Positions 7,741 to 53,016 of a DNA stretch of 53,016 nucleotides are shown here, in pieces. A program made the position numbers and the translations under genes. Below the pieces are notes generated by a model. It was not told where the DNA came from, ran no database searches, and saw only the letters and a program-made list of their open reading frames with translations. The stretch is from contig NZ_KB910954.1 of the NCBI RefSeq assembly GCF_000383235.1, positions 1 through 53,016 on the forward strand, in the 5' to 3' direction. Each line of letters begins with the position of its first letter. Position 1 is the stretch's first letter. The DNA comes from Bacillus sp. 123MFChir2. GTDB lineage: Bacteria > Bacillota > Bacilli > Bacillales > Bacillaceae_G.

Positions 7741-7944
7741 AGGCTTCAACGCACAGCATGTAAATTTTGCAACATCTAAATCCCATCTATGCAGAATAAA
7801 AAGCACCTGCACTCGTTTTCTCTTTCTGTTTTTATATCGCACGTGGCAGAAAAAGGCCCTGACCGCTTCTATGCACGGCCAGTTGCTCTCGACCATTTAA
7901 AAAAATGCTTTTCTGTCAGTTTTTTATTTGATGTATACATAGTG
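7741..7944 (-). repeat. Dispersed repeat, copy A (minus orientation)
   Basis: In minus orientation it reads a CATTT/AAATG hairpin, then the core CTGGCCG-loop-CGGTCAG (7 bp with one G-U), then GGGCC-T-run-CTGCCAC and an AT-rich tail. It lies between convergent genes, dehydrogenase and DcuR-type regulator, and would be read by read-through from the regulator. Ends are approximate. Close in sequence to copies B and E in its 5' hairpin. Confidence 0.8.
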
Positions 7945-10394: not shown

Positions 10395-10530
10395 TTACCA
10401 ATCGTAACAACTTAGTTATTTTATGAAAAACCGACAGAAAAGCATTTTTTTAAATGGGCAAGAGGGACTGGCGATGCGTAGGAGCGGTCAGGGCCCTTTC
10501 CTGCCACATGCGCAGTTTTAAAAAAAGAAA
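10395..10530 (+). repeat. Dispersed repeat, copy B (plus orientation, 3' part missing)
   Basis: Shares with copy E the start TATGAAAAACCGAYAG and the CATTT/AAATG hairpin, then CTGGCGA-loop-CGGTCAG (weaker, 5 bp), GGGCCCTTTCCTGCCACATGCG. The second half seen in copies C, D and H is absent. The unit runs directly into the open frame of the following gene, which lacks its own start region. Confidence 0.78.
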
Positions 10531-11898: not shown

Positions 11899-12107
11899 AC
11901 TTATATAAATATAAATTGAAAAAACGACATAAAAACCTCTTTCTTTTTAGGAGAGGACGTAAGCGTCTAGCCGTGCATAGGAGCGGTCAGGGCCTTTTCC
12001 TGCCACATGCGATGTTTTAAAACAAAGGGAGCAGGCCGGTAGCGATCCCGTTATACTCTGCATAGCAGCGATTTATATGTCGAGAAATCAAAATGAATTT
12101 ATATAGA
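11899..12107 (+). repeat. Dispersed repeat, copy C (plus orientation, full length)
   Basis: Full-length copy of about 209 bp: AT-rich end, CCTCTTT/GGAGAGG hairpin, core CTAGCCG-loop-CGGTCAG (one A-C mismatch), GGGCCTTTTCCTGCCACATGCGATG, then a second half ending GAATTTATATAG. It lies in the divergent gap between the radical SAM gene and the crotonase remnant. Confidence 0.85.
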
Positions 12108-31060: not shown

Positions 31061-31258
31061 AACTATATATATCCAGATTAAAAAACCTCTTTCTTTTTAG
31101 GGGAGGATGAGAGCATCTGGCCGTGCATAGAAGCGGTCAGGGCCTTTTCTTGCCACATGCAATATTTTAAATCAAAGAGAGCAAGAGAGTACAGGTCGTG
31201 TTGCACCCTGCATAACAGCTACTTATATGTCGAAAAATTAAAATGGATTTATATAGTT
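31061..31258 (+). repeat. Dispersed repeat, copy D (plus orientation, best-preserved ends)
   Basis: 198 bp bounded by AACTATATATATCCA (31061-31075) and TGGATTTATATAGTT (31244-31258), inverted with few mismatches. Inside: CCTCTTT/GGGGAGG hairpin (three T-G pairs), core CTGGCCG-TGCATAGAAG-CGGTCAG, GGGCCTTTTCTTGCCACATGC, and a second half also present in copies C and H. It lies between inhA and yhaL, antisense to both. Confidence 0.87.
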
Positions 31259-31343: not shown

Positions 31344-33731
31344 TTAACGATGAATCCAAACTGCTCCTGCAGTCTTATCATCAGCTTGACCTACTACTTC
31401 AAACTTCAGTCCAAGCTTTGGAACTTTTCGTCCTGCATCTGGAATTAACGTGTTCATGTATGCTTTAGAGTCATCAAATTTCGCCACACCTGGTAATCCT
31501 TTATAATCAAATACTCCGCGTGATGGTGAATTTACTTTCCACGCTGGTGTTTGATCAAATGAGAACGCAGCATCTGCAATTTGATAACGCGTGCTACTTT
31601 TCACAGACGGCTGACCATTTAATGTTCCTACAATTGCTTCTGGATGAGAATCTACTACCCCAAGGAATCCTTCGCCTGGATGTACACCAACCCAGTTATC
31701 TGTAAAGCTTTGGTCTGCATACCATACAACAAGCCCTGTATTGTAAACTGGGCCACGTCCGTATTGCAACGCTTCATCAGAACCAGCATAGTTTCTCCAC
31801 TCTAAATAGTAGTTATTTTTCTTATATTCAATTCCATTAGAAACAGTAAAACCTTTTAAAGTAAAGTTTGATTGCCCTTCTGCATCATCAGAGAGCACAA
31901 CTTTACCATCTACTGTTAAAGCCGCATTATCAAGCGCAAATCCTTTGTAAGCTACCGCAATATCTGTTAAATATTCAAATTGTAGTTTTACTTTCTTACC
32001 TTTGAATTGACTTAAATCATAAGATTTATCAATCCACTTATTATTTGTTGTATCGACACCATTCTTGATGTCTTTGTCACCCATTCTATCAAGCTTTGTT
32101 TTCGTTCCATCTTCTGCAATCGCGTATACATCAACGAAATCGTACTTTGCTTCTAATTCATAGAATGCTTTGTAATCAAATTTTGCAGTCGTTGCATTTG
32201 TTAAATCGAATAATGGTGTCTCTAATGTTGTGTGGATATCATTTCCTTTTGTACTATAGTAAAATTTCTGTCCAAAACCAGGTTCAATGTTTTTCACTTC
32301 TTTATCAGGTAAATTTACACGAACAATTCCTGGACGTTTTGATTTCGTAACACTTTGATCTATATACGTCGCAGCCCCAACACCACGAAGTTTATCATAG
32401 TCTACCTCAGTAATATTCGCCCAGTTACCCTTCATATTTTTTTGGAAAAACTCTTTATTTTGCGGAGAGAAACTTGTCGGTTCTGTTCCAGCAATTCTTC
32501 CAGCCCAGCTGCCGCCGCTCATAAGAGACCAAGCTTCAATTGGCTCACCTTGTCCTGAATACTTTGTATCATATTCATCTGGTAAACCTAAATCATGACC
32601 AAATTCATGAGCAAATACACCAACCGCACCGTCTTCAGGCTCGATTGTGTAATCGTATGCAGCCATCTTTCCATCCCATCTTTGTACAGATGATTTTGTT
32701 CCATCAATTGCATAAGGTTTTGCACCTAACTTGGAACGGTGAGACCAAATTGCATCATCTTTCAACTTTCCACCGCCAGCTTCTTGACCAACACCAGCGT
32801 GAACAACCATTAAATGATCGATAATTCCATCTGGCTCATTTTTATTACCGTTGTTGTTATAATCGTATTGATCAAACTGATCGTAATCAGCTATATTAAT
32901 TCCTTTTTCCACTGCTGCTTTTAACGCGTCTTTTACTAAATCACGTGGCCCTAAAGGTCCTTTATTATCATGACCGCTGCCAGCATCAGAGCCGTAATCA
33001 GCTGCTTTACCTGGAACAGTTAACCATTCTGTTACAGTTCCATCAACTGTATAGCTGCCGCCTGATTGCTCTTCATAATATTGCTTAAATGTTTTAATGT
33101 TCGTGCCATTGAATAATGTAAACGGCTCATCACCAAATAACATTTTTTGATAATGCTCACGATTAAAATCATTTGAATACATATATCCTTGTTCTTGATC
33201 GATATTGTTATGTTTAAAATCACTATATTCTACAAGAAGCACAAGAACTTTATCTTCGCGCACAGAACCATTATAAGGTGCTTGCTTCGCTGAGGAAGTT
33301 GGCACTTTCCCATTTAGCTTTCCTGAATTTAATCCAGGTACTTGTCCATTTCCTGCACCATTCTCTTTTTGATTCTGCTGCTCTTTCTCTTTCATCTTTT
33401 CATCTTTTACTTTTTTCATAAAGTCAGTAGCTTCTTGCGTAAGGCTGTCTTCTGGCGTTATTTCCTTTCCAGGATTTTCGCCTTTCTTCTTCTCTATATA
33501 TTTCTCTATAGCCTTTGATGTTTCTGCTTGTGATGCAGAAGGATCAATAACCCCGCGCTCCTTCAATGCATTTGCCAAGCGATCCTCCGGTATTAAATGC
33601 TCATCTATGAAACTAGATGACACTGATGGTGATTCTGCATAAGCAGCTTGGCCACCAAAAGCAAACATGGAACTTAGCATAGCCCCTGTTGCCAACACTG
33701 AAAAAGTTTTTAATTTTCTGTTCTTTTTCAA
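31344..33731 (-). CDS. inhA: Immune inhibitor A, M6-family secreted zinc metalloprotease
   Basis: 795 residues, the length of InhA proteins. A signal peptide (cut near AYA-ES, residue 32) and a propeptide precede the catalytic domain; the zinc site is [14 protein letters not shown] with HEFGH at 375-379. The C-terminal half carries a MAM-like beta domain and a VEG-type region. InhA degrades host antibacterial peptides and matrix proteins and is found on exosporium. Start is TTG 33731 after GGGGAGGG. The genome probably has several paralogues, so I do not number this one. An inverted repeat upstream (33808-33846) may be its operator. Confidence 0.94.
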
Positions 33732-34026: not shown

Positions 34027-34175
34027 CTTATAAATTCATTTTTTGGCATATAGACTGCTGTCATGTAAACTGGGCAAGAAAAGGCCCTGACCGTTCCTAT
34101 ACATCACCAATCCCTCTCGCCCATTTAAAAAATGCTTTTCTATCGGTTTTTCATACAGTAACTGAGTAGTTACGA
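34027..34175 (-). repeat. Dispersed repeat, copy E (minus orientation, divergent)
   Basis: Minus-strand order: GTAACT-ACTC-AGTTAC hairpin, TATGAAAAACCGATAG, CATTT/AAATG hairpin, core TTGGTGA-loop-CGGTCAG (substituted arm, several G-U pairs), GGGCCTTTTCTTGCCCA, ending near CTTATAAATTC. Closest to copy B. Lies between yhaM and inhA, in the sense of inhA. Confidence 0.75.
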
Positions 34176-34229: not shown

Positions 34230-35392
<1,163 letters not shown>

Positions 35393-39600: not shown

Positions 39601-39749
39601 TTTTCGAATTGAGGAGGCAAATCAAGGCCACATACTCTCGTTGTTTGAACATCGCACGTGGCAGAAAAAAGAACTGACCGCTCCTACTCATGGCCAGACG
39701 CTCTCGTCCATCTAAAAAGAAAAGGTTTTTTAATTTGGATGTACATATT
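39601..39749 (-). repeat. Dispersed repeat, copy G (minus orientation)
   Basis: Begins TACATCCAAATTAAAAAACC on the minus strand, then a U-rich hairpin, core CTGGCCA-TGAGTAGGAG-CGGTCAG, TTCTTTTTTCTGCCACGTGCGATG, and a short 3' part. It lies in the divergent gap between yhzD and yhaO, in the sense of yhaO, close to where its promoter should be. Confidence 0.78.
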
Positions 39750-42033: not shown

Positions 42034-42240
42034 AGTATATAAATCAATTTTAACCTTTCGACATATAAGTTGCTGTTATACAGACTGCAACACGGCCTGT
42101 ACTCGCTTGCACCCTTTGCTTTAAAACATCGCATGTGGCAGGAAAAGGCTCTAACCGTTTCTATGCACGGCCAGATGCTCTCGTCCTCCCCTAAAAAGAA
42201 AGAGGTTTTTATGTTTATTTTTTAATTTGGATATATAGTT
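42034..42240 (-). repeat. Dispersed repeat, copy H (minus orientation, full length)
   Basis: 207 bp with inverted ends AACTATATATCCAAATT (right) and AGTATATAAATCAATTT (left). Minus strand: CCTCTTT/GGGGAGG hairpin, core CTGGCCG-TGCATAGAAA-CGGTTAG, in which a C-to-T change turns a G-C pair into G-U, then GAGCCTTTTCCTGCCACATGCGATG and the second half shared with C and D. Antisense to the flanking plus-strand genes. Confidence 0.87.
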
Positions 42241-50254: not shown

Positions 50255-50305
50255 ACATTCCCCCCCTAATTATAGTTATCATGTAACTTCAACATGGAAT
50301 GTATA

Positions 50306-50345
50306 AATACAAATTGAAAAAATGACATAAAAACCACTTTCTTTC
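50306..50345 (+). repeat. Dispersed-repeat end fragment (copy I)
   Basis: TATAAATACAAATTGAAAAA then AATGACATAAAAACCACTTTC matches the 5' end of copy C over about 40 bp, after which the similarity stops. A relic or a solo end. Confidence 0.65.
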
Positions 50346-52790: not shown

Positions 52791-53016
52791 TCATTGCGTG
52801 CTTTTTTTGCTCAATAAAAGTAAACCTAAACCCATCAATACAGAAAATATCCCTATATATAAATTTTTAGGAATACCATGTCCTGTTTTGGGTAATATCT
52901 TTCCATCTTCTCTCGTATTTAGTTTCTCACCCGTACTTGGCTTCTCACCTGTATTTGGCTTTTCATCCGTACTTGGTTTCTCATCCGTACTTGGTTTCTC
53001 ACCCGTACTTGGTTTC
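52791..53016 (-). CDS. LPXTG cell-wall-anchored surface protein, C-terminal part (cut by window edge)
   Basis: The minus frame gives repeated hexapeptides of type EKPSTG/EKPSTD/EKPNTG (about six), then LPKTGHG, a membrane helix (NLYIGIFSVLMGLGLLLL) and SKKSTQ. This is a sortase-A signal with its spacer region. The repeats are 18 bp units with a near-identical core, so copy number can change by slippage. The N-terminal functional domain lies outside the window, so the ligand is unknown. Confidence 0.88.
   Translation of the reverse strand, partial: KPSTGEKPSTDEKPSTDEKPNTGEKPSTGEKLNTREDGKILPKTGHGIPKNLYIGIFSVLMGLGLLLLSKKSTQ

Follow-up and report, generated by a model that had tools for sequence, protein, structure and literature searches.

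Dispersed repeats of a Bacillus contig resemble IS630-type MITEs and recur in Ectobacillus

Introduction

The repeats dispersed through the window (the whole 53,016-nucleotide stretch of Bacillus sp. DNA that was analyzed) are very probably non-autonomous DNA transposons, or MITEs, of the IS630/Tc1-mariner type. Mobilization by an IS630-type transposase is proposed because the repeats have TATA-type ends and a high copy number, because a related genome has empty sites with a single TA, and because one end is shared with an IS630 element. A preliminary description of the window had called the repeat a mobile MITE-like unit, and that view is borne out by the terminal inverted repeats, the copy number, three single-TA empty sites and an IS630-family element with one end in common. 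At 170–200 nt, the repeats are far too short to encode a transposase, and they occur in many copies. An IS630-type transposase acting in trans would bind the ends of the element, excise it and paste it into a TA dinucleotide, and the elements would spread as genomic parasites that are mostly tolerated between genes. Their interior has no demonstrated function, and the hairpins of single copies would be by-products. One observation counts against plain descent from IS630 ends: a core of about 60 nt is shared with a second repeat that lacks the MITE ends.

Repeat copies in the window

The eight dispersed copies (A–H) and the fragment (I) listed in the preliminary description were recovered at the same positions and are homologous when compared with the window by blastn. 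Every copy detects six or more of the seven others (blastn against the window, E 1e-3), and E and F are the only pair that do not recover each other. The copies are as follows, with the boundaries of the full-length C, D and H refined by eye.

Copy A: 7741–7944, minus strand; 3′ end degenerate
Copy B: 10395–10530, plus strand; short form without the 3′ half, sharing 87% identity with E over 104 nt
Copy C: 11904–12103, plus strand; full-length MITE of 200 nt between TA dinucleotides, 3′ terminal repeat at 12075–12106
Copy D: 31066–31253, plus strand; full-length MITE of 188 nt, flanking TA at 31064–31065 and 31254–31255
Core stem of copy D (CTGGCCG/CGGTCAG): 31117–31140, plus strand; followed by a short T-run
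Copy E: 34027–34175, minus strand; interior mostly missing, 3′ end like the terminal repeat (by eye)
Copy F: 35213–35392, minus strand; 5′ hairpin of 8 bp
Copy G: 39601–39749, minus strand; without the 3′ end
Copy H: 42038–42235, minus strand; full-length MITE of 198 nt with a TA on either side, sharing 89% identity with D over 175 nt
Fragment I: 50302–50344, plus strand; 5′ end only, 93% identical to C

Only C, D and H are full length (188–200 nt), and these three carry TATA-type terminal inverted repeats with a TA on either side; the ends of A, F and G are degenerate or missing. In copy D, the 3′ terminal repeat pattern matches at 31225–31256, and the boundaries are placed by the TA rule that emerges from the three empty sites described below. 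The core motif TAGNAGCGGTCAG, with up to two mismatches, has eight matches in the window against 1.8 expected, a number that none of 100 shuffles reaches; seven of the matches fall inside copies and one outside (32970), and copy F is missed. For the 3′ terminal pattern, C and D provide the only matches, against 0 expected.

The copies had been placed between genes on both strands. Both strands are indeed used, and six of the eight copies are intergenic, but B and H overlap ORFs (127 and 83 aa, respectively) when ORFs of at least 80 aa are counted and smaller overlapping ones are dropped. Neither of these two ORFs has a Pfam match. Between copies D and E lies a gene for an InhA-like M6 metalloprotease (31344–33731), and about five tandem 18-nt units occupy the end of the window (52915–53004).

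Host and distribution

Among the best 80 of 586 relatives, the YhaM protein encoded in the window is closest to those of Ectobacillus panaciterrae (85%) and E. antri (81%), and a 4.9-kb alignment of the window with E. panaciterrae has 74% DNA identity. Because the YhaM ranking and the DNA alignment both point to Ectobacillus, E. panaciterrae and E. antri are probably the nearest named relatives found, and a host from the B. cereus group is unlikely. Four Ectobacillus genomes were compared: E. panaciterrae, E. antri, G003 and G004, the last being a close relative of E. antri.

With copy D as the query, E. panaciterrae gave at least 43 places (40 of 203 candidates scored; lowest E 1e-14) and E. 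antri a single marginal one. With a sequence-only model built from 26 cores, the matches number at least 150 in E. panaciterrae, 32 in E. antri and 14 in G004, and G003 has none. The remaining 15 family genomes yield a single marginal match to this model (G008, 9e-4). Among 397 genomes sampled from the order, only E. panaciterrae, E. antri and G004 match the core model (E 1e-4, stricter filters); a B. cereus 16S signature matches none of the 397, a sample that may therefore lack the B. cereus group. In E. panaciterrae, 25 copies that span more than 120 of the 187 positions of a profile HMM lie in 300 contiguous kb (15 contiguous stretches with 32 hits in all; five of 20 stretches had been picked for having hits and were excluded), a density that would extrapolate to roughly 450 copies in 5.4 Mb.

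Outside chromosomes, copy D has no match at 1e-5 in plasmids and phages. At E 10, copy C has 18 plasmid matches and one E. panaciterrae copy has one, all of them weak and partial. Searches of the open-licence literature returned no paper combining Ectobacillus with IS630 or "miniature inverted," and nothing on the subject was among the papers listed by looser searches. The family looks like a new one of a well-known kind, an IS630-type MITE family in Ectobacillus.

Rfam searches of seven E. panaciterrae stretches and ten E. antri and G004 loci returned only T-box, RsaE and c-di-AMP elements. One G004 copy (L155:443–580) adjoins a c-di-AMP (ydaO) riboswitch, and its E. antri relative (L154) shares the 3′ flank and has a different 5′ flank.

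Termini and target site

Nine E. antri-type copies measure 170–183 nt without the flanking TAs, and E. antri-type copies have the form TA-TATAAGT...ACTTATA-TA or close to it. On both strands together, E. panaciterrae has 68 matches to the terminal-repeat pattern, E. antri 29, G003 two and G004 seven, whereas the reversed pattern, used as a control, has none in any of the four genomes. The two G003 places (L101 and L102) have the MITE 3′ terminal repeat without a core match; in L102 this repeat forms the end of a short, roughly 106-bp element.

The comparison of E. antri with G004 covered five orthologous sites. G004 lacks the insertion at three of them, both genomes carry it at a fourth, and the fifth gave no clear reading. 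The three empty G004 sites read C-TA-A, C-TA-A and C-TA-G, with a single TA each (boundaries by eye), and their occupied counterparts in E. antri have two TAs each. Thus, TA is duplicated at insertion at three of the five compared sites, as expected for a member of the IS630-type MITEs. In the window itself, TA duplication is suggested by the shape of C, D and H. Insertion into TA with its duplication is described as a hallmark of IS630/Tc1-mariner elements (PMC2170065), and a title in the reference list of the same paper names a CTAG preference for IS630 (PMC2170065). A CTAG target is seen in part: among the nine E. antri-type copies, C precedes the TAs in six and G follows them in seven, with both in four, and one of the three empty sites has it as well.

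The copy occupied in both genomes is identical at 177 of 187 positions, compared with 1878 of 1973 for noncoding DNA, and it therefore diverges like noncoding DNA. Its first 85 nt are identical at 84 of 85 positions and the remainder at 93 of 102; one site is too little for a claim of constraint on the first 85 nt.

Candidate mobilizer

The IS630 transposase domain PF13358 (DDE_3) is present in all four Ectobacillus genomes. In G003, TATAAGT ends enclose an element of two ORFs with HTH and DDE_3 domains; its closest relatives on plasmids carry the annotation ISBs2-type IS630. In G004, one end of an IS630-family element of about 1.18 kb matches the MITE 3′ end for all six ends tested (1000 shuffles each; p at most 0.004 per single comparison, among 48 comparisons), with 17 bases identical to the 3′ end of copy D. 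This end of the G004 element recurs in an IS630 relic of E. panaciterrae (six of six at p at most 0.024), where it begins 108 nt from the DDE_3 stretch of the relic. Also in E. panaciterrae, at L227:1244–1809, a MITE copy directly adjoins an IS630 transposase relic.

The MITE 5′ ends match the G004 element in none of six comparisons against one of its ends and in one of six (p 0.043) against the other. Because these 5′ ends do not resemble the element beyond chance, the comparison stops short of the immediate parent. The transposase matches in G004 and E. antri contain in-frame stops within the matched stretch, and any current source of the enzyme is therefore putative. Judged by domains and ends, an IS630-type transposase is the best candidate for the mobilizer, and these elements would represent a candidate parent IS family.

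Alternative explanations

The preliminary description had also proposed that the element works as RNA on one strand, an argument built on G-T pairs that would be G-U in RNA. A mobile repeat that also acts as RNA in one orientation, for instance as a UTR hairpin altering mRNA stability, appears highly improbable. The pairs themselves are there: the core stem CTGGCCG-loop-CGGTCAG keeps a G-T pair in eight of eight copies, and the 5′ hairpins of C, D and H contain two, three and three T-G pairs, respectively. Some copies, however, have a stem with broken pairs: A-C stands at the last pair in B, E, F and G and at the third in C, and G-G at the sixth in B and E. The 56 core-stem cells of the window contain 11 G-T and five A-C pairs, and without the invariant pair the tally is three G-T to five A-C, so that the core stem shows no excess of G-U on one strand. 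The G-T pair is best counted as one inherited event because it is invariant in the eight window copies. The 5′ hairpins of C, D and H contain no A-C, and these three copies are close relatives. None of the seven core-stem pairs shows compensatory change among the window copies. In 26 cores (eight from the window, with nine MITE and nine second-repeat copies of E. panaciterrae), two of the seven pairs do, a result that 125 of 500 shuffles also reach; of the stem cells, 61.7% are paired compared with 62.0% in shuffles, and RNAalifold returns no consensus structure. The eight window copies alone give a two-tier consensus hairpin of 15 pairs, but its covariation term is unfavorable and two-sided change is found in one of the 15. 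At one pair of the 5′ hairpin, four copies have C-G and the other four U-A, which would favor an RNA, although every pair measure is reached by shuffles (66 to 497 of 500) and the first core-stem pair is broken in all nine aligned MITE copies of E. panaciterrae.

Folding energies speak for the proposed strand in the window, where seven of eight copies fold more stably on it and z is lower on it than on the opposite strand in six of eight. Averaged over the window copies (n = 8), the fold z of the two strands comes to −1.70 and −0.75; the averages for 60 random 190-mers of the window are −0.89 and −0.80. The relatives do not repeat this difference between strands: 33 distinct full-length E. panaciterrae copies (from model position 3 or lower to 183 or higher) average −1.28 and −1.22, and 16 E. 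antri-type copies average −1.52 and −1.63. Raw energy favors the proposed strand in 20 of 33 E. panaciterrae and 15 of 16 E. antri-type copies, and z does so in 15 of 33 and seven of 16. Orientation to genes has no clear bias either, with nine copies in the same and six in the opposite direction in codirectional gaps (from 42 copies of more than 120 model positions, after removal of ten overlapping called ORFs and one without a neighbor). Rfam has no match at the gathering threshold anywhere in the window, and the seven sub-threshold matches around copy D are all far under their gathering scores. Transcription alone would not establish function, since two B. cereus strains reportedly transcribe 40–51% of their bcr repeats (PMC3446304). 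In sum, an RNA working on one strand is not supported.

The shared core raises a separate question. In E. panaciterrae, a second dispersed repeat of about 250 nt has no TATA-type ends and shares the core of about 60 nt with the MITE (for instance L130:8882–9188 and L119:6091–6369, within L112–L131); 12 of its copies gave no consensus fold on either strand. Some copies of this second repeat sit just before terminator-like hairpins (by eye). Since the core occurs in a repeat without MITE ends, simple parasitism does not explain it. The core (AUAG.A.CGGUCA...CCUUUU) could be a functional, sequence-specific element captured and spread by the IS630-type MITE, a reading that is unlikely as judged here; the core, for example a protein-binding site or a short RNA motif, would then exist independently in the second repeat. 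That the core acts as a mobile intrinsic terminator, with the stem CTGGCCG/CGGTCAG followed by GGCCTTTTCTT, is hardly credible. Copy D has a terminator-like match at 31116–31141 against 0.3 expected in shuffles, and nine of 31 E. panaciterrae copies lie in convergent gaps, which hold about 21% of gap bases (raw counts). Conversely, the T-run is short and interrupted by G and C, and a perfect stem is lacking in B, C, E, F and G as well as in the E. panaciterrae copies.

The probable assignment to the B. cereus repeat (bcr) class made in the preliminary description finds no support, and it is very improbable that the repeats are relatives or members of bcr1–bcr18. The bcr repeats, which were compared by description only, are similar in size and in MITE-like character: bcr1–bcr3 are dispersed repeats of a Bacillales host and are termed MITE-like (PMC3446304), and the motif TTTAT, which is tied to bcr mobility (PMC6542083), is found at the 3′ ends of C, D and H. 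TTTAT lies near the 3′ end, however, in only eight of 33 E. panaciterrae and one of 16 E. antri-type copies, and the target duplicated at the three empty sites is TA. Furthermore, bcr repeats are described as specific to the B. cereus group (PMC6542083), whereas the nearest relatives found are Ectobacillus (YhaM, among the matches listed) and copies of the repeat reside in E. panaciterrae and E. antri. Host and target together thus make the bcr reading unlikely. Plasmid searches with the repeats gave no B. cereus hit, which proves little as the collection may not contain plasmids of that group, and a tblastn search of plasmids with an ABC ATPase of the window (E 1e-60) had no B. cereus group plasmid among the matches listed.

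Comparison with known systems and implications

Among described systems, the operation of the repeat family may most closely be compared with RUP of Streptococcus pneumoniae, which it resembles. RUP is a short MITE with 110 copies in one genome that is judged parasitic, and its ends resemble those of IS630-Spn1 of the same species (PMC3049150); in the present repeats, it is the 3′ end that resembles one end of an IS630-family element of Ectobacillus. The likeness is one of description, and RUP is shorter (107 bp compared with about 170–200 bp) and has another host (PMC3049150). ISY100 of the IS630 family duplicates its TA target on insertion, as appears to hold for the repeats, but it is autonomous and carries its transposase, for which the repeats have no room (PMC2170065). 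The BOX elements of S. pneumoniae are likewise small interspersed repeats with IS-like ends and predicted RNA folds (PMC3049150). They consist of A, B and C modules, and some copies were shown to be expressed (PMC3049150).

The analysis also corrects an inference: one G-U pair common to related copies reflects one inherited event and is silent on which strand works. If the core is functional, this MITE would have distributed a captured motif over hundreds of sites. As a probable IS630-type family, the repeats add to Ectobacillus a dense set of MITEs, empty sites that display the target duplication and a candidate parent IS family.
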